Program-made: the position numbers and the translations under genes
Shown: positions 2,337 to 30,554 of the stretch, in pieces
Numbering within the stretch: position 1 is the first letter of the stretch
Layout: each line of letters starts with the position of its first letter
The notes under the pieces: generated by a model
Told to the model about the DNA's origin: nothing
The model's input: only the letters and a program-made list of their open reading frames with translations
Databases searched by the model: none
IMG/VR virus record: IMGVR_UViG_3300046450_002773
Location: 1-33,783 of that record
Strand: one strand, 5' to 3'
Source of the DNA: a virus
DNA: 33,783 nt

Positions 2337-4870
2337 GCATCTTTTAAGTCGGAGAGCTTTGTGTATATTTTATTGGTCTGGATAGCTATCTTATCAGCGA
2401 AGACAACCTCTTCCTTCTTTTTTCCAGTTACTATTACAATGTTATTTTCTTCGGGGGGGTTGTTAGCGTTTTCTGCCATCATTTGAGCAAGCCTGTTGGA
2501 GAAGATCATCACTTTCATGTTGGCTGTCTCGTCTTTTACGAAGACTTTCATGTATTCATTGTCGTTTCTGGACTTACCGAAGAAAGGCTTGTCTTCAACT
2601 GCCCCAACAAACGATACGGTCTCGTCAATCTCAGACTCTTCCACTGTTCTTAGGGAAAATAACCCCTGTCTTTTCTCTTGGAAAATATCTCTTAACGTTT
2701 TTCCTGAGGTATACCCTAATAGATGGTTTTCGTAATACCAGTTTGCGAATGATTCGGAGTATTTGTTCTTGAAGTAAATTTGCTTGTATGGCTCAGACTT
2801 CTTTCTAATGGTTTTCATTCTGGTTTCCTTCACCATGGGCTTACCTTTGTCATCTTTTTTAATGGATAGACACTTCATTATCTCTACTAAATCAAAATTA
2901 TATTTATCAGCAAGCAAAAGGGCTGCCGCTTTTTCTTTTTTCGTGAGGATATTCCACAATTGAGCCTCGTAAACTATCTTGCTGCGAGACATCTGGAACC
3001 CCTCAAAGGTTCCGGCCTGAATTAAGGCGGATAAAATACCAATGGTGAGACCAGCTTCCTTGGCTCCCTCAAAGACTTCGAACTTGGTAGAGTAGCAATT
3101 CTTGAAGTCGTTTAATTTTTCAATAGACTTCTCAGAGATACCCTTTATGGAAAGCAGCCCGAAGCGAATATTGTTTCCTTCAGCGTTAAAATCCATTTCA
3201 GATTTTATGATATGAGGAGGGAGTAGCTTTACTCCGAAATCGCTCATCTCTCTTTGCGTTTTTGAAATCTCACGAATTGGGTCAGGTTCATGCCTAGTCA
3301 TCTTGAGAAGGCTCAAGAAGAACTGTTGCGGGTATTTAAATTTAAGGTAAACAGTCGTCGCCGCTAAGGCTGCGTACGAAATTGAATGAGACTTATTAAA
3401 AGAGTAATTTGCTGAGTCTTCTAGCAAGCTCCAAAGAACATCGCCGATTTTGGGATCTAGATTGTTTTCTTTTACCTTGCTTTTTATTTTCCTTTTCCAT
3501 TTACGGACTTCTATTACTTTTTTCTTGCCGACAATTCTGCGAAGTATTTCCGCTTCGTCGAGCGTGAAGCCTATTTTGTTTGCCATCTGCATCATTTGTT
3601 CTTGATACAATGCCACCCCTCCGGTCTGCAATAAAATATCATCAAAGAATGGGTGAATGGATTCACCTTCCCCAGTGTTGGCATACTCAGCGTATTGATC
3701 AACAAAGGCCAATGCCCCCGGACGAGATAGGGCCAGCACTCCGCTCAGTTCTTCTAAGTTTTTAGGTTTAACTTTCTGGCATACCCTAAAGTTCGTGTCC
3801 GCTTCGATTTGGAACAGTCCATGTGGGGTTCTTAGATTTTGTAGGTTATCGTAAATGAGACTGTCGTTTAGATCTATGTCCGAAAGCTCTATGCCAACAT
3901 TTTTACATACATCGTCTACGACTGATACAGCCCTGAGTCCAAGGATGTCCAGCTTGACGTTGAACATGGATACCCAGTTCATATCGTAAGAAGAAACGAA
4001 GCTTTTCTTGTCTGAAGTAAGCTCGGTGGGGCAACTGTCGTCCATCATATCATAAGACAAAGATATTGCTGATGGATGAACCCCTTTGTTTTTGTTTAGG
4101 CCTTTTATTTTTAAGGCTATTTGGTAACACTCGTTATTGTTATCGCACCATTCCCTGAAGTCTGACTCTTCAGCGTAAGCTTCCTTTAGGTCTTTGACTT
4201 GCCCAAAAACCTTTGGGATAAGAGATGAAACTTTATTCATTTCTTGTTCTGATTTAGAAGCCACAACTTTGCCACACTCTTTTACGCATAGCTTTCCGCT
4301 TAGAGTGTTGAGCGTTACGATCTTCGAGGTTTTACCTTTGAATTTGCTCTCCAGAAACTCAAGGACTTTCTGCCTGTTGTAATAACAGATATCCAAGTCT
4401 ACGTCCATCATCAAGGAGCCGTCCAAGTAAGTGATTCCGTCTACTATAGTTTTCTTCGCTCTTATTTTTGAGATAAAACGCTCGAAGAATAAACCGTATT
4501 CTATCGGATCAATTTTCGTGACCCCCATTAGGTAAAGAAGTAAACTTCCCGCAGCTGAACCACGACCAATACCCGTTGGGATTTGCTCTTTTTTGCAAAA
4601 GTTAATTACTTCCCAGACAAGTAAAAGGTAATCCACAAACCCAAGCTCTCTAACTGTTTTAAGCTCGTGGGTTAACCTTTCTCTGTACTTTGGTTCATCT
4701 AACTTTAGTTTTTGTAAACCATCTTCGCAAAGAGACTCTAAGAAGTCTTCGTTACAGATGTCTTCGCTTACACCCAGCTTCCTTTTGTCCTTGTTCTCTA
4801 CTTTAAAAGAAGGGAGCCTAACTCCGTGAATCTTTAAATCGAGGTCTTCAAATTGGTCTATGAAATTCAT
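2333..4870 (-). CDS. dnaE-like: DNA polymerase III alpha, catalytic polymerase part (PHP domain absent)
   Basis: This is a C-family replicative polymerase. Residues ~20-100 match the start of the palm region, followed by GRGSAAGS (102-109) and LDPIEY-type motifs. Catalytic aspartates are visible in MDVDLDI (D158 and D160) and in VKLDILGLR (D308). Fingers motifs ELSGVLALSRPGAL and GVALYQEQMMQMA follow, then a helix-hairpin-like GLLSIKGIS and a C-terminal OB-fold (~730-810, VSFVGAVEDKPFFGKS). The usual N-terminal PHP domain is missing; it is encoded separately at 9347-10096. The break falls where bacterial DnaE has the short link between PHP and palm, just before the LPxF motif. The start overlaps the carbamoyltransferase stop in ATGA. 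Together the two pieces total 1094 residues, close to intact DnaE. Confidence 0.93.
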   Translation of the reverse strand: MNFIDQFEDLDLKIHGVRLPSFKVENKDKRKLGVSEDICNEDFLESLCEDGLQKLKLDEPKYRERLTHELKTVRELGFVDYLLLVWEVINFCKKEQIPTGIGRGSAAGSLLLYLMGVTKIDPIEYGLFFERFISKIRAKKTIVDGITYLDGSLMMDVDLDICYYNRQKVLEFLESKFKGKTSKIVTLNTLSGKLCVKECGKVVASKSEQEMNKVSSLIPKVFGQVKDLKEAYAEESDFREWCDNNNECYQIALKIKGLNKNKGVHPSAISLSYDMMDDSCPTELTSDKKSFVSSYDMNWVSMFNVKLDILGLRAVSVVDDVCKNVGIELSDIDLNDSLIYDNLQNLRTPHGLFQIEADTNFRVCQKVKPKNLEELSGVLALSRPGALAFVDQYAEYANTGEGESIHPFFDDILLQTGGVALYQEQMMQMANKIGFTLDEAEILRRIVGKKKVIEVRKWKRKIKSKVKENNLDPKIGDVLWSLLEDSANYSFNKSHSISYAALAATTVYLKFKYPQQFFLSLLKMTRHEPDPIREISKTQREMSDFGVKLLPPHIIKSEMDFNAEGNNIRFGLLSIKGISEKSIEKLNDFKNCYSTKFEVFEGAKEAGLTIGILSALIQAGTFEGFQMSRSKIVYEAQLWNILTKKEKAAALLLADKYNFDLVEIMKCLSIKKDDKGKPMVKETRMKTIRKKSEPYKQIYFKNKYSESFANWYYENHLLGYTSGKTLRDIFQEKRQGLFSLRTVEESEIDETVSFVGAVEDKPFFGKSRNDNEYMKVFVKDETANMKVMIFSNRLAQMMAENANNPPEENNIVIVTGKKKEEVVFADKIAIQTNKIYTKLSDLKDA

Positions 4871-6519
4871 TTTTCTACTATAAAATTACCTACACAAAGT
4901 GAGTCCGCGTCACTTTCCATAAAGGTTCTGATTGCATCGTATGGAGAATTCACTATGGGCTCGTAACTTAAATTAAAGCTAGTGTTCAGGACTAAAGGTA
5001 TACCAGTTCTTTTTTTAAATTCAAGAATTATATCATGAAAAATTGGATTAGTTTTCTTATAGACTGTTTGAGGTCTGCAAGAACCGTCTACGTGGACAAC
5101 AGCGGGTATCTTATCTTTATAACTCTCTTTAACTTGACACGCCATTAGCATGTAGGGAGAATGAATTTTAGACTCAACCACGTCGAAGTAGTCTTCTTCG
5201 AGAATGCTTGGCGCTAAAGGTCTCCAAGGCTCTCGGCCTTTAATTTTGTTTACTTTATCTAGCATTCCTTTACTGCAAGGGTTCGCTAGTATGCTTCTGT
5301 TACCCAACGCTCTCGGTCCTATCTCTGCTCTGCCTTGGAAGTTGCAAACAACCTTATCTTGGGCAAGTAAATCCGCAACACGTTCGGATGGATTGTTGTA
5401 ATGAGTGTAATTTAAATTTTGCTCGTCTAGCTCTTTGTTAATATCGTCTTGAGAAAATTCAGACCCCCAGTATGCATGATCAAAATTATTCTCAAAATTA
5501 CCGCCATGCTCTTTGCATCCTAAAATTGCCGCACCAAGAGCCGTTCCGTTGTCCGCCGCAGCGGGTTGCACAAAAACCTCATCCACGAAATCGAGCGAGG
5601 CTAAGTGCCCATTCCCTGTACAATTTAGAGCGACACCGCCAGCGAGACAGAAGTTTGAGCAACCATTGTCGGCAACCATTTCTATAGCTTTTTTGGTTAG
5701 GTAATTGTTGTAATGGTGCTGTAGCATGTACGCCGTATCCTTGCCTTCCTGCGACAAGGGGTCCACCATCTTACCGGACTGAATGCTCCAGCCTTTTTTC
5801 TCGAAAAACATATTGTACTCAAACAGGTTTGGAGAGCCATCTGGCATGAATAAACCCGGGAGAGCCTCAAGGTTGTACTTCCCGTAAGAAGCCAGCCCCA
5901 TTGTTTTCCCTTCTCCAGAATGGCGTATGAAGCCTAAAAATTCAGTAACGTCTTCCCAAATCCTCCCCCAAGAATAATCTACAGGAATGACTTCATTAAA
6001 GCTTAGCGGGTTTACTTGGTGAGTGGTTATATCGTGGTAATTAGAAAAAGTTCCTTCACTAAACCCGAGCCAACCGCTGCAATCATCTCCAGATCCATCT
6101 AGAGAAAGTAGATTGCTAAAAGAAAAACCACTGCAAAAAAACGAAGAAGCGACATGGCAGAGGTGATGATTGTAATAAGAAACTCTTGCATCTATTTCTA
6201 GGCTCGAAAAGCCAGCTAACATTCTATCTGTAGAAAGTTTTAGAAAATCAGCACGATCCCGTCGTTTTTGCAACTCGGTGTTTGGATTCCACCCGCAAGC
6301 AATCACATCTAAATCTTTTGGTCCAATCCCACCAACTCTAAGGCATTCTTTTATTGCGTTCGCGGGAAAATCTCCATGCGATTGTCCATTAAAAACATTT
6401 GTAGCGTGCTTGTTTCTGGTGAAGCGTTCCTCTTCGTTTATGGAAACTATTTTGCCGTCCATTATGAGGCATGCGGCAGTGTTCCAGCTTATGGGGTGAG
6501 TTATTCCTAATACATTCAT
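4867..6519 (-). CDS. Carbamoyltransferase, NodU/CmcH/TobZ family
   Basis: The family transfers a carbamoyl group from carbamoyl phosphate, through carbamoyl-adenylate, to hydroxyls of sugars or small molecules. All landmarks are present over 550 residues. These are a Kae1-like N-domain with NEEERFTRNKH (~28-38) and metal-binding HHLCH (118-122), LDGSGDD, CLAGGVALN, and QPAAADNGTALGAA. A C-terminal domain has GRAEIGPRALGNRS, REPWRPLAP, VDGSCRPQTV and LNTSFN. It looks complete and active. It overlaps its upstream and downstream genes by 4 bp and lies between a GT9-like gene and Pol III alpha. The acceptor is unknown: a phage-modified surface glycan, a virion glycan or a modified nucleotide are all possible. 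High confidence in family, low in substrate. Confidence 0.93.
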   Translation of the reverse strand: MNVLGITHPISWNTAACLIMDGKIVSINEEERFTRNKHATNVFNGQSHGDFPANAIKECLRVGGIGPKDLDVIACGWNPNTELQKRRDRADFLKLSTDRMLAGFSSLEIDARVSYYNHHLCHVASSFFCSGFSFSNLLSLDGSGDDCSGWLGFSEGTFSNYHDITTHQVNPLSFNEVIPVDYSWGRIWEDVTEFLGFIRHSGEGKTMGLASYGKYNLEALPGLFMPDGSPNLFEYNMFFEKKGWSIQSGKMVDPLSQEGKDTAYMLQHHYNNYLTKKAIEMVADNGCSNFCLAGGVALNCTGNGHLASLDFVDEVFVQPAAADNGTALGAAILGCKEHGGNFENNFDHAYWGSEFSQDDINKELDEQNLNYTHYNNPSERVADLLAQDKVVCNFQGRAEIGPRALGNRSILANPCSKGMLDKVNKIKGREPWRPLAPSILEEDYFDVVESKIHSPYMLMACQVKESYKDKIPAVVHVDGSCRPQTVYKKTNPIFHDIILEFKKRTGIPLVLNTSFNLSYEPIVNSPYDAIRTFMESDADSLCVGNFIVEK

Positions 6520-23692: not shown

Positions 23693-26149
23693 TTATTGGC
23701 AGCTCTCGCAATTAGGGTCTGTGATTAAGCAGGCTTTATAGTCAGCCAGATCGTCACCATTACTAACGTCGCTGCTCGTTTGGGTTGATTTCTCGGTTTC
23801 GCTTGCGCTTTTGTTTCTTAAATAATATGTGCTTTTTAGACCTAATTTCTTAGCATGAAAATAAAGATCATTCAAGTATTTTAAAGAAGTTTTATTATTA
23901 AACAAGTTTAAACTTTGCCCCATGTCTATCCATTTTTGCTTAGCTGCTCCACCTTCCAGCAGCTTGAACTGATCATGGTCAAAAGCTGTACAGTACCGGT
24001 CTTTTAAGTCTGCCGGTATATCGCCGTTCAGACGCCTCAGGTCACCGTCCACGAATCTTATCGCATCAATGAGCCCTTGGTTCCATATGCCTCTTTCTTT
24101 ACATTCTTTGATGAACCATTCGTTTACTATGGTTAAATTTCCGCTCTTATTTTCGTAGACAAAAAGAACCGAGAAATCGGGTTCAACACAAGGCGAACAC
24201 CCTTGGATATAGGATATTGTTGCCGTGGGCGCTATCGCCATAGTATTGCTGTTTCTCATTCCGTGTTCTTTTACGTGAGAACGAGCCTCTTTCCAGTCTA
24301 GTTCTGGGCAGTATTTTTTTCCTCTATGCGATATAGGCTTGTAATCATTTAAGTACTCCATTAATTTTTTGTATGTATCCGAGGGAAATACCCCTTTGCT
24401 CCAAAGCGACCCTTCGAACGTGGAGTATTTACCTTTTTCTTTAGAAAGTTTACTGGAATTTAAGATGCAATGGAACGAAATGAATTCGTAAAGCTCGTCC
24501 GAAAATTTAATAGCCTCATCCGATGAGAAGTTAACTTTATAAGAATGAAATACGTCCGCCCACCCCATGCTGCCAGCGCCAACTGGGCGATGAGCGAGGT
24601 TGGATTTCTCTGCTTCAGCTGTAGGGTAAAAGTTTAAATCAACGACATTGTCTAACATCCTCATTTGGGTTGCTATGGTTTTTGAGAGAAGCTTAAAATC
24701 TAACTCTCCGTTCTGCTTAAGGTGTTCCTTTAAATTCACAGAGCTCAGGTTGCATACAGCCGTTTCGCCGACCTCGGTCTTTACTCCCTCTTCGTATCGA
24801 GAGGGCTTAGTATGTAGGAATATCTCCGTGCAAAGATTAGAGCTATGGATAACGCCTTCGTGAGAGTTGGAGTAGCGCATATTAGCGTTATCTTTAAACG
24901 TCATCCAAGCGTGACCTGTTTCGAACAGAGCTCTTAGCATTTTTTTCCACAACTCTTTAGCTTTAATTGTGCGGTAGTTGGTTAGTTCTCCGTCGTCAGC
25001 CTGTTTGCAGTATTTTTTATATCGTTTATCAAAATCACTTCCGTAAGTCTCGTGTAAATCCCTGACATCTGAAGGGGAAAAAAGATACCAGTCCTTGTTT
25101 TTTTCCACGTATTCGAAGAATAAATTAGGCAACCAGTTTGCTGTGTTCATGTCGTGACAGCGACGACGCTCTTCGCCGGTGTTCTTCTTAAGATCAAGGA
25201 AATCTTCTATATCTAAGTGCCAAGGCTCAAGATAAGCGCAACCCGCACCGGGACGCTTACCTCCTTGGTTAACCGCTACAAGAAGGTCGTTGTATATTTT
25301 AAGCCACGGTACAAGACCACTGGAAGTCCCGTTTGTCCCTTTGATATGAGAACCGGCTGAGCGAAAATTAGAAACATCAAAGCCTAGCCCTCCAGCGTAT
25401 TTAGATTTTCGAGCCTCCTGCCAAGCTCCCTCAAATATGCCGTCAATGCTGTCATCGAAAGTGTTTAGGTAGCAAGAGCTGAGCTGGCTATGAGTAGTTC
25501 CGCTATTGAAAAGGGTGGGCGTGGAGGGGCATACTAAAAATTTGGAAATAGTTTCGTAGAACTCTATAGCCTTTTGCTCTTTATCTTTTTCGTTAAGAGC
25601 TAGTCCCATGGAGACTCTCATCCAGAATGATTGAGGCGCTTCTAGTCTTCGTCCGTTTACGTTAAGGAGGTATCTGTCGTAAAGGGTTTGCAGTCCAAGG
25701 TATTTGAACTTAAAGTCTCTGCTCAAGTCGAGTGCTTCTGATAATTTTTTTAAATCAAATTCTAAAAGCTTTTCAGATAAGACTCCTTCCCCTACTAAAA
25801 GCTTAGTGTTTTTTATGAACGATAAGCGGTATTGGTGATCGAACGCGTCTTTATCTACACTGCTCCCAAATACTTCTTTATGTATATTGAAAAGCAGAAG
25901 CTTGGAGGCTACGTAGTTGTAGTTTGGCTCTTTTTCTATCTTTTGCCTTGCTGACAAAATTAGAGCCTTGTCTATTTCTTTAGTGGTGATTTTATCGTAG
26001 AGTTGGACGTGCGCGTCAAGGACCACTTCGCTTGCTGAAACATTTTCAAGAAATTCACAAGCTCTTTCGGCGCATAAATTAATCTTGTTAATGTCTAGCT
26101 CTTGAAGTCGCCCGTTTCTCTTCTTAACATTTCTTGAAGGTGTTTCCAT
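23693..26149 (-). CDS. nrdA: Class I ribonucleotide reductase large subunit (NrdA)
   Basis: 818 residues, close to full-length NrdA. An N-terminal ATP-cone (~5-90, VKKRNGRLQELDINKI) gives allosteric activity control. Catalytic cysteines are C226 (SSCYLN) and C440, the thiyl-radical site in SSNLCTEI, with a C-terminal redox pair C814/C817 in the tail NCESCQ. Other signatures are GGLGFDVSN, GKRPGAGCAYLEPWH and NSNTMAIAPTATIS. It catalyses NDP reduction with NrdB, two genes downstream. No intein or split is seen. Confidence 0.95.
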   Translation of the reverse strand: METPSRNVKKRNGRLQELDINKINLCAERACEFLENVSASEVVLDAHVQLYDKITTKEIDKALILSARQKIEKEPNYNYVASKLLLFNIHKEVFGSSVDKDAFDHQYRLSFIKNTKLLVGEGVLSEKLLEFDLKKLSEALDLSRDFKFKYLGLQTLYDRYLLNVNGRRLEAPQSFWMRVSMGLALNEKDKEQKAIEFYETISKFLVCPSTPTLFNSGTTHSQLSSCYLNTFDDSIDGIFEGAWQEARKSKYAGGLGFDVSNFRSAGSHIKGTNGTSSGLVPWLKIYNDLLVAVNQGGKRPGAGCAYLEPWHLDIEDFLDLKKNTGEERRRCHDMNTANWLPNLFFEYVEKNKDWYLFSPSDVRDLHETYGSDFDKRYKKYCKQADDGELTNYRTIKAKELWKKMLRALFETGHAWMTFKDNANMRYSNSHEGVIHSSNLCTEIFLHTKPSRYEEGVKTEVGETAVCNLSSVNLKEHLKQNGELDFKLLSKTIATQMRMLDNVVDLNFYPTAEAEKSNLAHRPVGAGSMGWADVFHSYKVNFSSDEAIKFSDELYEFISFHCILNSSKLSKEKGKYSTFEGSLWSKGVFPSDTYKKLMEYLNDYKPISHRGKKYCPELDWKEARSHVKEHGMRNSNTMAIAPTATISYIQGCSPCVEPDFSVLFVYENKSGNLTIVNEWFIKECKERGIWNQGLIDAIRFVDGDLRRLNGDIPADLKDRYCTAFDHDQFKLLEGGAAKQKWIDMGQSLNLFNNKTSLKYLNDLYFHAKKLGLKSTYYLRNKSASETEKSTQTSSDVSNGDDLADYKACLITDPNCESCQ

Positions 26150-26203: not shown

Positions 26204-27475
26204 TTATATCTGCCTTCCGTGGACAGGAACTTCGAACCCTTTCTCGGGCAACTTGACAAGGTGAGCCTTTGTATACAGTATTCTGTGAAATTCATGAAAG
26301 TCGCTAGGGTAGTAATTATTTATCCTGTTCAGTTGGAATTTTACGGGAGTACCTATGAAATGAGCCTGTTCGCTTTTAGTATAATACCAAAAACTATTAC
26401 TGTTCCAGTAACTGACATGAGTTGGGTCTTGGAACGCTCCTCTACCGTCCGTGGAAGGCACGTCTATTACGGCCCACCCGTAGTCAGCGAGACATCTGTA
26501 GATTTCCTTCATAGTATTTAGTGGGTCTTTCATATGCTCAACTGCGTCTTGAGCACGAAAGACTCCGACCGAACCGTCCTCGAAGGGCCAGTCGGTTTTG
26601 TTCAAGTCAAAAACTATATCATCTTCGTTAAGTTTTCTAGCGTCTACGCCTACGAAGCCTTTGGGCTTGTTGTTGCAACTGCATAAGTCTACCTTTTTAA
26701 GACCGTTTTCGTCGCTCCACTTCGACGCAATCTCAAGCGCGTATTGGTCGTGGATTTTATGCGTTAGCTCTTGTATGTCTTTGTTTTTTTCGCCGTAGGC
26801 CGTATTGTCTTCATGAAAGTAGTATTTGTATAAGGGTTTACTTATGAGGTGGCACCTTCCATTTATGTAAGTTCGGCACAATAGATCATAGTCGTCGCAA
26901 ACTTCTAGCTCGGCGTTGTGCCCGCCGATTTGGTTGTAAAATTTCCTGTTCCAAGACCTGACGTGATCCGGAGCGTACCAAATGTAAGAAAAAGATAAAG
27001 CTGACGGAGCGAAGGACGGGTGGTAAGGCAGCCCGCTTTCATCTTCTTCGGTTTTCCATCCCCATTCGGCGGAGAATGACGTTTCATAAGTTTCTTTGCC
27101 GTCGACAATCCTTACGGCATAATCAGACGAGTAACAAAAGTCGTGCCCTTCGTCGAAAGCCTTGGATAGTTCCTCTAAACAGTCCGACATTAAAGCGTCG
27201 TCGTGATCCAATTCTACTAGGAAATCACCTGAAGATTCTTCGCAGCTCCTTTTCTTCAAGTATCCTATGTTTTTGTTATCCGATACGTCTTGTATAATTT
27301 TATAATTTAATCCAGACGAATTGAGCTTCTCCTCGAGAGAGTCTTTCTCTTTGAGGGCGTCCCCGTTCAAGAGGAGTACCCATTCAAAGTCTTTGAACGT
27401 TTGGTTTAATAGACTATTAATCGGTCGGTCTATATACTTCAGACTATGTGATGGTGTGAATACTGAAAATTTCAT
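26204..27475 (-). CDS. GT2 glycosyltransferase fused to a methyltransferase-like domain
   Basis: Residues 1-215 are a GT2/GT-A domain: KFSVFTPSHSLKYIDR, NQTFKDFEWVLLLNGD, GDFLVELDHDDAL (DxD at 90-92) and the acceptor EVCDDYDLLCR. Residues ~260-400 follow class I SAM methyltransferases: VDLCSCNNKPKGFVGVD, DLNKTDWPFEDGSVGVF, VEHMKDPLNTMKEIYRCL and QDPTHVSYW. The SAM-binding GxG of motif I is CSC here (265-267), so binding may be lost or altered. The gene overlaps the FmdB-like gene by ATGA. It could build or decorate a glycan along with the other glycosyltransferases of the window. Confidence 0.8.
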   Translation of the reverse strand: MKFSVFTPSHSLKYIDRPINSLLNQTFKDFEWVLLLNGDALKEKDSLEEKLNSSGLNYKIIQDVSDNKNIGYLKKRSCEESSGDFLVELDHDDALMSDCLEELSKAFDEGHDFCYSSDYAVRIVDGKETYETSFSAEWGWKTEEDESGLPYHPSFAPSALSFSYIWYAPDHVRSWNRKFYNQIGGHNAELEVCDDYDLLCRTYINGRCHLISKPLYKYYFHEDNTAYGEKNKDIQELTHKIHDQYALEIASKWSDENGLKKVDLCSCNNKPKGFVGVDARKLNEDDIVFDLNKTDWPFEDGSVGVFRAQDAVEHMKDPLNTMKEIYRCLADYGWAVIDVPSTDGRGAFQDPTHVSYWNSNSFWYYTKSEQAHFIGTPVKFQLNRINNYYPSDFHEFHRILYTKAHLVKLPEKGFEVPVHGRQI

Positions 27476-28324: not shown

Positions 28325-28957
28325 CTAAATATTATCTTGATGCTCGTTAGAATTCATCTTCTTATGGAGCATTCTTACACCTTTTTGGTGCAAATTGATA
28401 GCTGTTTGCGTACTTGTGTTTATTTTTGAAGCTATAGTACTCCAAGTAGCTTTTTTATTTTTAATGTCTTTATCGAAATACCTTAACTTAAATACTTTAG
28501 ATATTCTTTTGTCTTTTAATTGTTTTAAAAGCTTAAAGACGTACTCTTTGTCGTTTTTTAAATTACTTTCATCGTCGAACTCCTCTTTGCTTTTGTTTAT
28601 CATAATGGTCTCGATCGTCTCGTCTTCTAGGTCTACAAATCTGTTGCGGGAATTAATGAAAGTTAAACAGAAGTATTTGGAGCAGTTCCCGAACCAAGTT
28701 GAGAATTTAGTGTTCTTGTTCGGTTTGTAACTTCTTACAGCTTTAAACAGGACGAAGCTTTTTTCTTGAAACATGTCTTGTCTTCTAAAACCTTTAGCTT
28801 CTGCTACGGGTGCGTAGATCTGACACATTTTATAGAATAGCTTTTCGTGACGATCTAAGAGAATCAGGAAACTTTCATTGCATCCTGTAGCTTTTATCCT
28901 TCTGACTAATGTATTGTCAACGGGAAGCTTTTTTAGTTTTTTTGCTGCGATAGCCAT
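28325..28957 (-). CDS. Sigma-70-like factor (ECF-type layout)
   Basis: 210 residues. Region 2 spans ~35-115: LIL..RHEKLFYKMCQIYAP, the core-binding FRRQDMFQEKSFVLFKAVRSYKPNK, and KFSTWFGNCSKYF, matching sigma region 2. Region 4-like helix-turn-helix is at ~150-200 (FKLRYF, WSTIASKINTSTQTAINLHQKGVRMLHKKM). Region 1.1 and most of region 3 are absent, as in ECF factors. It overlaps the dNMP kinase by 25 bp. It may direct host RNA polymerase to phage promoters, for example the TGTAA-type boxes. Confidence 0.75.
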   Translation of the reverse strand: MAIAAKKLKKLPVDNTLVRRIKATGCNESFLILLDRHEKLFYKMCQIYAPVAEAKGFRRQDMFQEKSFVLFKAVRSYKPNKNTKFSTWFGNCSKYFCLTFINSRNRFVDLEDETIETIMINKSKEEFDDESNLKNDKEYVFKLLKQLKDKRISKVFKLRYFDKDIKNKKATWSTIASKINTSTQTAINLHQKGVRMLHKKMNSNEHQDNI

Positions 28958-29559
28958 TTGACGAATTCACCAACATATGGTTCTAGTTCGTCGATTTGAC
29001 CGGTTTCAATGAAAGGCCATTCAATTTGAAAGTCACTTTTATCTTTTATTTTTGGGTCATTTCTGGTTTCCTCGCTGTTTGCAGGGGTTTTGAATTTTTT
29101 AAGTTTGCCCTGAGTAATTGATAAGCCCTCTTCGTGTGCTTTTACTTGAGTAAAACCTAAATACATAGAAACATGAACTAATACCCCTCCTAGTTCGTTT
29201 TTTAACCAACTTACTTCATCGTTTTCATAATCATCATACCTTATATCTGTTATGATTTTAAAATTTTTAGATTTATCGTTAATGATATTGTCGTTAAGCT
29301 TATCTAACCAGTGCCTACCCTCGCTAGAATTTCTTTTGAACTTAGCGTGGTAAACTAAGAACTCCCTGATCAACTCCTTTTCTTCTCTCGCGCAATTAAC
29401 GGAATCTACACCGTAATGAATCATGCACCATCGCTGGACTTCTTTCTTAAGCTCGTCAGCTAAGGAAAACCTCGTGCAAGGAATGTGCCGGGAAAGCAAC
29501 GAGAAGAAAGTGTCCTTACCGCTTCCGGCAACACCTGATACTCCTATAATCTTGTTCAT
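28933..29559 (-). CDS. Deoxynucleoside monophosphate kinase
   Basis: P-loop GVAGSGKDT (9-17) with the dNMP-kinase spacing and FSLADELKKEV after it. Further landmarks are an Arg-rich lid region and a conserved ITDIRYDDYENDE strand-loop. 208 residues, the size range of T4 gp1-type enzymes. It phosphorylates dNMPs to feed the RNR-made dNTP pool. It lies directly after the non-coding block and overlaps the sigma-like gene. The -10-like TATAAT sits only 2 nt before its ATG, so its true promoter is not clear. Confidence 0.8.
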   Translation of the reverse strand: MNKIIGVSGVAGSGKDTFFSLLSRHIPCTRFSLADELKKEVQRWCMIHYGVDSVNCAREEKELIREFLVYHAKFKRNSSEGRHWLDKLNDNIINDKSKNFKIITDIRYDDYENDEVSWLKNELGGVLVHVSMYLGFTQVKAHEEGLSITQGKLKKFKTPANSEETRNDPKIKDKSDFQIEWPFIETGQIDELEPYVGEFVKWLSQQKN

Positions 29560-30045
29560 ATATTATATTAAAATTATTTAAAACTTAAATCTAATAATCC
29601 TAGCGTATGACTGCTTATCCTTTAAATTTTTCCTCTGGGTTAAGAAAGCCGAATGGCTTTCGGGATAAGAACATAGCTGTCCACTGGGGAATAGTTTCTG
29701 TATTTAACAAAGCCGCTTCAGTCCGTCGCGTTAGCCTCTTTTAGCTCCGCTCGCTGACTTGTTAAACTATAGCACTCTTTGTTTCTGCGGAGGGACTTAT
29801 CTTTTTAACTGCTTATCCTTTTCCTCTTGGGAGGATTAAGTTTCTAGCTTGAGCATTTCTGCTCACATTAGCCTCAACTGCCGCTTTTTCCCGAAATAAC
29901 AGCAGACTTATTAAGTCTAGTTGGCTAAGGTCTTTTTACGGGCCTGTGGTCTCTTACGAGTTGAAGTGAGGTTAACCCTCACAAGCTGTTCACCGCTAAC
30001 AAAGAACTGTAGGTACTCTATCAAGCTTTTACAGCGAAGCAAGTA
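29560..30045 (-). ncRNA. Candidate structured non-coding RNA (orientation inferred minus)
   Basis: There is no convincing coding frame over 486 bp in an otherwise gapless genome, but many perfect stems. They are: tttaacaa (29703-29710) with ttgttaaa (29759-29766), extended by atag (29691-29694) and ctat (29767-29770); cttatcc (29614-29620) with ggataag (29663-29669), enclosing gaaagcc/ggctttc (29644-29661); tcctc/gagga (29822-29835); tgagca/tgctca (29850-29865) with a GAAA loop on the minus strand; agactt/aagtct (29904-29918); and gtgagg/cctcac (29966-29982). ACTGCTTATCC followed by a TTCCTC-GGG segment occurs twice, near 29610 and 29808. No tRNA-like TPsiC loop or RNase P core was found. Minus strand is preferred from the GAAA tetraloop and collinear genes. 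Confidence 0.55.
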
Positions 30046-30549
30046 TTATTTTTTCTTTTCATTTTCCCCTTCATCTTCTTCAGGGGTTTCATCACGATCG
30101 TTAACGTCTACCCCAAAATCACTAAGGCTGCTAATTATTTCTTCTTTTTCCGATAGCTTTTGTTTATAGTATTGAGCTATGTGGACCAAGTTCCGGAAGT
30201 CTTTTTCGGTTATAGAGGAGGGAGAGCACTCATCCTGATGATCTTCGATTAAATTGCAGAACTCGTTAATTTCATTACCCACCATCGTCGCTGTCCACGG
30301 ATTTAAGTCGGGGTTCTGAACGTAAGACTCAAACGGCTTAGTGAGGACGTAGAACTTTTTTTCATTATAATCCTTTGAGGCTATTAAATTATTAGACTCC
30401 AACTCCTCTAAAGCCAACTTAAAAGCCACGATTGATTCAGCTTCGTCATCAGAAACTTGAACTATTTTCTTAAGGTCTCGGTCGATCTCAAAACTGTGAT
30501 TAGTTCGGAAGTATTCAAAAAGACTGTTATTTGCGTCTAAAATTGTCAT
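30046..30549 (-). CDS. Hypothetical acidic protein
   Basis: ~167 residues, acidic, with an N-terminal helical region (LFEYFRTNHSFEIDRDLKKIV, AFKLALEELESNNLI) that could be a winged-helix-like domain, and a very acidic end (ETPEEDEGENEKKK). Two adjacent ATGs exist (30552 and 30549). I use the second because the predicted transcript starts there. It is divergent from a small DNA-binding-like gene at 30628. Function unknown. Confidence 0.6.
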   Translation of the reverse strand: MTILDANNSLFEYFRTNHSFEIDRDLKKIVQVSDDEAESIVAFKLALEELESNNLIASKDYNEKKFYVLTKPFESYVQNPDLNPWTATMVGNEINEFCNLIEDHQDECSPSSITEKDFRNLVHIAQYYKQKLSEKEEIISSLSDFGVDVNDRDETPEEDEGENEKKK

Positions 30550-30554
30550 CATCT

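Follow-up and report, generated by a model that had tools for sequence, protein, structure and literature searches.

A pseudoknotted RNA of about 400 nt in uncultured phage genomes, with a proposed role in trans

Does a gap between two genes of a phage genome hold an RNA that works in its own right and, if so, of what kind? The gap in question (486 nt, 29560-30045) is flanked by two minus-strand genes in IMG/VR virus record IMGVR_UViG_3300046450_002773, a 33,783-base record that carries phage replication genes; the whole record was analyzed and is called the window here. A first-pass annotation, made without database searches, had proposed that the gap contains a structured element, namely a new structured noncoding RNA of about 450 nt on the leftward strand. 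Homologs confirm the element, and the proposal largely held: the RNA is about 400 nt long, lies on the minus strand and belongs to no Rfam family. The RNA proper covers about 29605-30008 of the interval, whose outer ends consist of promoter and A+T-rich spacer. Our overall reading, which we favor by a modest margin only, is that of a stand-alone phage noncoding RNA of about 400 nt that is folded, has its own promoter and acts in trans in the manner of the phage RNAs GOLLD and ROOL. The evidence is comparative sequence; no transcript, oligomer, partner or function has been observed directly, and the function is inferred.

A protein search with the neighboring kinase showed the gap to be about 85-88% conserved at six other loci, and six DNA-pattern scans of IMG/VR, together with a covariance model, enlarged the homolog set. 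Homologs of the RNA occur in 31 IMG/VR phage records besides the window, a count of contig names tallied after each candidate from the pattern scans and the covariance-model search had been read; two of these are identical to the window RNA, two duplicate other members and two are cut by contig ends. When 16 whole records were searched with the model, 15 gave exactly one match, the sole exception being a 9.3-kb contig that ends at the kinase gene. Candidates L036, L037 (model E 0.78), L042, L043, L047 and L050 were judged by reading to be chance matches. The structure-blind MAFFT alignment used throughout (A1) comprises 24 full-length homologs, in which the RNA measures 363-425 nt; it omits the duplicates L020, L022, L032 and L046, the truncated copies L019, L034 and L027, and also L057 and L012/L058, which were found later.

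The RNA is kept at one syntenic place although neighboring proteins drop to about 40% identity. The phage proteins match only distant cultured relatives, NrdA at no more than 44.7% identity among the 15 rows listed and DNA polymerase at no more than 31.8% among 10. No blastn match was found in INPHARED phages for the window RNA, L040, L041 or L025, nor in plasmids for the window RNA, and two exact-pattern scans of an 84,980-species collection of bacterial and archaeal genomes returned no true copy. Two matches from the second of these scans were rejected on reading, as the rest of the RNA is missing. Exact patterns miss known members (GUCCG in PK1; L012; L057), and absence from bacteria is therefore unproved. 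As one part of the overall reading, we lean toward the view that the RNA is conserved in a lineage of large uncultured phages. Three further observations concern proteins of the window. NrdA (23693-26149, minus) is about 76-88% identical across the phages, with their dNMP kinase and sigma-like proteins mostly at 33-66%, a pattern of either unusually strong conservation or recent exchange. A Nol-like carbamoyltransferase is encoded at 4867-6519 (minus), and at 26204-27475 (minus) glycosyltransferase and methyltransferase domains are joined in one protein.

Folding of the single window sequence gave a z score of -2.24 for the minus strand (1 of 100 shuffles as good) and -1.74 for the plus strand (4 of 100). 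An energy only mildly better than that of shuffled sequence would not suffice as proof of a fold; the homologs supply that proof. RNAalifold on A1 returned 36 pairs, 25 with two-sided compensatory change, and a covariation scan of every column pair with enough residues (24 sequences, 11 in effective number) revealed extra long-range helices, GCUU/AAGC and CCAC/GUGG in particular. Combining the two gives a structure of 72 pairs, 14 helices and four pseudoknots; across the 24 homologs standard pairs fill 92.7% of 1640 cells, and 48 of the 72 pairs show two-sided changes in A1. On each of five measures, all 500 shuffles fell short of the real alignment. When the partners were shifted by 1-3 columns, pairing dropped to 33-43%; this control is biased in favor of the structure, which was drawn on the same alignment, so the comparison with shuffles by number of pairs and types is safer. 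The weakest helices are P1b (76.8% of cells paired), P5 (83.1%), P8 (87.0%), P7 (88.2%) and H1 (89.2%). G-U combinations fill 132 cells of the fold and A-C combinations 28, and the functional strand is therefore the minus strand. The comparative evidence establishes that the RNA folds, as the minus strand, into a compact pseudoknotted molecule.

One alternative is that the stems are a chance cluster or belong to a decayed gene. In its favor stands the single-sequence folding, only mildly above shuffled. Against it stand covariation far beyond every control, syntenic retention while neighboring proteins diverge, and the lack of a conserved frame: none is kept in place across the 24 homologs, and the longest ATG-started frame wholly within the RNA varies by copy from 14 to 69 letters, stop included. 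We regard this alternative as all but excluded. The first-pass annotation had named two outcomes that would refute it, no covariation across homologs or a conserved protein frame in related genomes, and neither was met, covariation being strong.

The features of the RNA and its surroundings are collected in Table 1. The unmapped ends of the RNA are inferences, drawn from where the promoter lies and how far conservation extends in the 24 sequences of A1. The 5' domain, closed by P1b and P1, holds H1, P2-P3-P4, PK1, PK3, P5 and a first module (R1, hairpin, T1), and the 3' domain holds P7, P8 and a second module (R2, hairpin, T2). PK1 and PK3 are interlocked within the 5' domain, both using the P4 loop, and PK2 and PK4, both spanning P1, plus the T1:R2 helix link the 5' domain to the 3' domain. 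Relatives carry PK1 as UCCG/CGGA (three of them), PK2 as AGUUC/GAACU or AACCC/GGGUU, and PK4 as CAAC/GUUG, CCUC/GAGG or CCUA/UAGG; two-sided changes affect 6/6 pairs of P2, 4/4 of P3 and 2/4 of P4. Three structural details of the first-pass annotation can be placed on this fold. Its 8-bp helix enclosing about 48 nt is P7, which covaries, and its stem-within-a-stem matches P2 around P3 and P4, where covariation is strong. Its minus-strand GNRA loops held only in part, the GAAA of P5 being real and GNRA not universal (present, by column, in 13 of 24). Three further candidates for general features were set aside because they fail in divergent members: docking of GNRA loops, kissing of palindromic loops (GUUAAC in H1 of the window) and a CUUAUCC/GGAUAAG pairing. 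Module 2 of the window also contains a clade-specific hairpin (GAAAGCC..GGCUUUC, 29649-29663, minus) that looks terminator-like to the scanner and is absent from divergent relatives.

Table 1. Positions of the RNA, its helices and strands, and neighboring features in the window
Feature	Position	Strand	Remarks
Unknown ORF	30046-30552	-	borders gap 29560-30045
-35-like box TTGCTT	30037-30042	-	weak in window; unlisted by consensus scanner
-10-like box TAGAGT	30015-30020	-	poor match in window; unlisted by scanner
RNA	29605-30008	-	404 nt; inferred 5' end (AGUUCUUUG) to just beyond second repeat copy
P1/P1b 5' strand (CUUUGU and GCGGU)	29992-30004	-	pairs with 29777-29791
PK3 5' strand GCUU	29983-29986	-	100% of cells paired; two-sided changes in 3/4 pairs
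Hairpin H1	29966-29982	-	two-sided changes in 5/6 pairs; missing from a few relatives
PK4 5' strand CCAC	29946-29949	-	pairs with 29681-29684, 265 nt away; 95.8% paired
PK1 5' strand CCCG	29939-29942	-	100% paired; CG to UA in 3 sequences
P2 (29923-29928/29868-29873) around hairpins P3 (29904-29918) and P4 (29878-29902)	29868-29928	-	99-100% paired
PK1 3' strand CGGG	29890-29893	-	partner of 29939-29942; in P4 loop
PK3 3' strand AAGC	29883-29886	-	partner of 29983-29986; in P4 loop
Hairpin P5, GNRA loop GAAA	29851-29864	-	two-sided changes in 5/5 pairs; 83% of cells paired
Strand R1 (CAAGCUAG)	29844-29851	-	local T1 partner; 3 pairs, 3/3 with two-sided changes, 90.5% paired
Repeat strand T1 (AAGGAUAAGCAGUUA)	29806-29820	-	changes in step with T2; pairs with R1 and R2
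PK2 5' strand AGUCC	29793-29797	-	pairs with 29720-29724 across P1; 99.2% paired
P1/P1b 3' strand	29777-29791	-	P1 99.1% of cells paired, UA/CG/UG change; P1b 76.8%
P7 (29753-29766/29703-29716) around hairpin P8 (29733-29746)	29703-29766	-	P7 two-sided changes in 10/12 pairs
PK2 3' strand GGACU	29720-29724	-	PK2 two-sided changes in 3/5 pairs
PK4 3' strand GUGG	29681-29684	-	PK4 two-sided changes in 3/4 pairs
Strand R2 (GACAGCUAUGUUCU)	29668-29681	-	partner of T1 (long range) or T2 (local)
Repeat strand T2 (AAGGAUAAGCAGUCA)	29608-29622	-	changes in step with T1; can pair locally with R2
Deoxynucleoside monophosphate (dNMP) kinase, downstream gene	28933-29559	-	phrog_139 E 9.7e-12; PF21448 slightly below cut-off; context, outside RNA
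Sigma-factor-like protein, next gene	28325-28957	-	phrog_36 and phrog_351; Sigma70_r2 below cut-off; context, outside RNA

Two copies lying outside A1 bear on the fold. The 5'-domain model R1, trained on the 24 sequences, found the copy in L012 (37.8 bits, E 5.5e-7), which is too divergent for any pattern scan to catch. By reading, this copy has a promoter (TTGACA-N17-TATACT), PK1, P2 and P4; a terminator-like hairpin comes next and, after it, a protein that exceeds the Pfam threshold for Sigma70_r2. The 3' half of the RNA copy is rearranged, and not all helices can be placed there. In L057, the complete copy of L027 obtained later, 75 of 75 positions pair in strands picked at matching places, a test only partly blind, as the 3' part had been seen before. 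As a further observation, L039 (7200-7624, minus) and L044 (348-761, plus) carry an insertion of a few tens of nucleotides around the P8 hairpin, as if the 3' domain could accept an extra arm.

Is the RNA transcribed on its own? In the window the scanner lists no promoter at the RNA on the minus strand. Measured from the inferred 5' end, all 24 homologs have TTG[AC] at -43 to -31 (9% at random positions), and 21 of them have TANNNT at -19 to -4 (23% at random). In only 16 of the 24 does the top-scoring consensus site lie where expected, and we consider this mechanical score less informative than the position test. Among divergent members, promoters come close to the consensus (TTGACA-N17-TATTAT in L040 and TTGACA-N17-TATACT in L058). 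Leftward transcription from a host-type sigma-70 promoter belonging to the RNA is thus inferred from promoter boxes, no transcript having been seen. Terminator-like hairpins stand between the RNA and the next gene in L040 and L058; no intrinsic terminator is listed at the RNA 3' end in the window, L035 or L048. In the very divergent copy of L058 (about 650-1060, minus), we also note that the 5' GCGGAA has a potential partner in the UUCCGC of that copy's terminator-like hairpin, and closing helix and terminator may there compete.

The position of the RNA raises the possibility that it is a leader, either riboswitch-like or an attenuator, which controls in cis the downstream operon of nucleotide-metabolism and sigma-factor genes. 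The RNA sits between a divergently transcribed dCMP-deaminase-like gene and the kinase, sigma and NrdA genes; in the window, ribonucleotide reductase genes come after the sigma-factor-like gene. In favor of a leader, the RNA is co-directional with the next ORF at all loci, at a distance of 6-144 nt; this ORF is a dNMP kinase in 17 of the 23 loci where it is readable, and a sigma-like gene directly follows the RNA in L040, L049 and L058. Several points argue against it. The constant downstream gene expected of a dNMP kinase leader was not met, since 6 of the 23 loci have another gene there (sigma-like in two, another protein in four), and in L025 a tRNA-Gly (1310-1385, plus) intervenes almost directly after the RNA. 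The kinase has a separate promoter-like site in L035 and L048, and a leader of 400 nt and four pseudoknots would be a large one. The varying next gene and the terminator-like hairpins in two relatives therefore make a stand-alone RNA likelier than a leader. This preference is inferred from sequence alone; a leader seems unlikely and is not excluded. A phage-encoded sigma-like factor lies close downstream of the RNA in most relatives, which we record as a separate observation.

An unexpected feature is a 15-nt strand that is duplicated, as T1 and T2, with both copies able to pair with the same strands. The first-pass annotation had reported a duplicated ACTGCTTATCC, and this held: the minus strand reads AAGGATAAGCAGT(T/C)A at both T1 and T2, 198 nt apart. 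A hairpin lies 5' of both copies, but the hairpins are less similar than the repeats. As read from the alignment, the two modules share a common plan of R, CUUAA, hairpin, GGAAAA, AAG and T. Across 13 sequences, T1 and T2 of the same genome have an identity of 0.92, as against 0.51 for those of different genomes; not one of 20,000 permutations gave such concert. Counted by alignment column, 91.7% of R2:T1 is paired, and 4 of its 5 pairs show two-sided changes. Cognate pairing energy exceeded permuted in 12 sequences for R1:T1 (P 0.007), R2:T1 (0.005), R1:T2 (0.008) and R2:T2 (0.045); some of the sequences are related, and the four tests depend on one another. Of the 12, 6 pair R2 more strongly with T1 than with T2, 5 pair it equally with both and one, the window, pairs it more weakly with T1; the R2 pairings are weak in L025, L039, L040 and L045. 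In an unconstrained scan, cognate pairing was only modestly preferred at R2, and R2 did not emerge as the top partner. The R2 strand lies directly 3' of the PK4 strand, so PK4 and R2:T1 could stack. We infer, with less confidence than we give to a stand-alone role in trans, that T1 and T2 compete with each other for pairing to R1 and R2. A role of T as guide to an outside target was set aside, its changes being matched inside the RNA.

Two other explanations address the same modules. The RNA could be the core of a ribonucleoprotein, the duplicated R-hairpin-T modules being two sites for one phage protein whose specificity T1 and T2 track. Two modules of the same plan with tails that change together would fit this possibility; against it, changes in T are compensated in R inside the RNA, which pairing explains without a protein, and no single neighboring gene was detected at every locus. 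We consider this explanation unlikely. The RNA could also be a ribozyme or self-splicing element in which the T copies are substrate strands recognized by R as guide strand. Several interlocked pseudoknots, conserved unpaired purine-rich segments and two near-identical strands with common partners speak for this, but the intron and ribozyme families of Rfam give no match even at E 1-10 and no gene is interrupted at the locus, and we consider it very unlikely.

Under the stand-alone reading, leftward transcription from the host-type sigma-70 promoter would yield a discrete RNA, in which the long helix P1 closes the 5' domain with its interlocked PK1 and PK3, and PK2, PK4 and the T1:R2 helix bind that domain to the 3' domain. 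The molecule may then act in trans as a scaffold or self-assembling particle, in the manner of GOLLD and ROOL. Competition of T1 and T2 for R1 and R2 could bring about strand exchange inside a single molecule, as a switch during synthesis of the 3' end, or alternatively between molecules, giving a domain-swapped assembly. Which of these holds, if either, is undecided by the sequence. A bolder reading, to which we give rather less credence than to its negation, is that the RNA is a phage RNA machine of a new class built around strand exchange, with T1 and T2 kept alike by selection because each has to pair with both R1 and R2. If true, the RNA would flip between two folds, or swap strands to form a symmetric RNA-only particle.

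How does the RNA compare with those already described? No Rfam family reached the gathering score in the window, including group I intron and RNase P RNA, which agrees with the earlier claim that the element resembles no nameable class; the claimed absence of tRNA and tmRNA signatures also held (ARAGORN, 0 genes in the window). Around the RNA, only two implausible weak matches appear at E up to 10; seven relatives at E up to 1 give only the tRNA of L025, and L040 only two chance-level matches. The GOLLD and ROOL models have no match in the window, around the RNA (E up to 10) or in the seven relatives (E up to 1). No description of this RNA was found in the open-licence literature searched, a result that does not rule one out.

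Only a small number of known phage noncoding RNAs are comparably large and intricate, and for the best-known two, GOLLD and ROOL, the function is open; both are large phage RNAs that form RNA-only cages (PMC12286853). An abundant orf-less noncoding transcript of about 800 nt occurs in vibriophage ICP1 (PMC7567579), and two lncRNAs of phage K have been likened to GOLLD and ROOL (PMC9241854). Like the ICP1 transcript, a product of a lytic phage, the RNA described here is long, noncoding and placed in a protein-free gap; unlike it, it does not lie at the start of the lysis cluster, and its length differs (PMC7567579). With GOLLD it shares a phage origin, large size, an ornate and pseudoknotted structure, long-range covarying pairs, an unknown function and an occasional place beside tRNAs, but it has no Rfam match and is about half as long (PMC12286853). 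GOLLD, which forms a homo-oligomeric cage, often exceeds 800 nt, with a conserved 3' region and a less conserved 5' region (PMC12286853), a description that the 24 homologs, at 363-425 nt, do not fit. ROOL is encoded by phages or prophages, often near tRNA islands (PMC12286853); tRNA genes occur in 7 of 29 scanned loci here and adjoin the RNA only in L025. Those of L023, L024, L031 and L033 lie about 3-8 kb from it. The RNA resembles ROOL as a large phage or prophage RNA with multiple pseudoknots and no known protein partner (PMC12286853), but it lacks a Rfam match and was found only in virus records, with none in the two bacterial and archaeal pattern scans. We therefore describe it as GOLLD/ROOL-like in manner and, by Rfam, a member of neither family, its function being inferred by analogy. 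Its discovery indicates that virus collections contain structured RNAs missing from Rfam. Shorter than GOLLD and ROOL, with four covariation-supported pseudoknots and a concerted duplicated strand, it is compact enough for structural studies and adds an independent example to the questions of why phages carry large RNAs and whether assembly from RNA alone is a recurring strategy.
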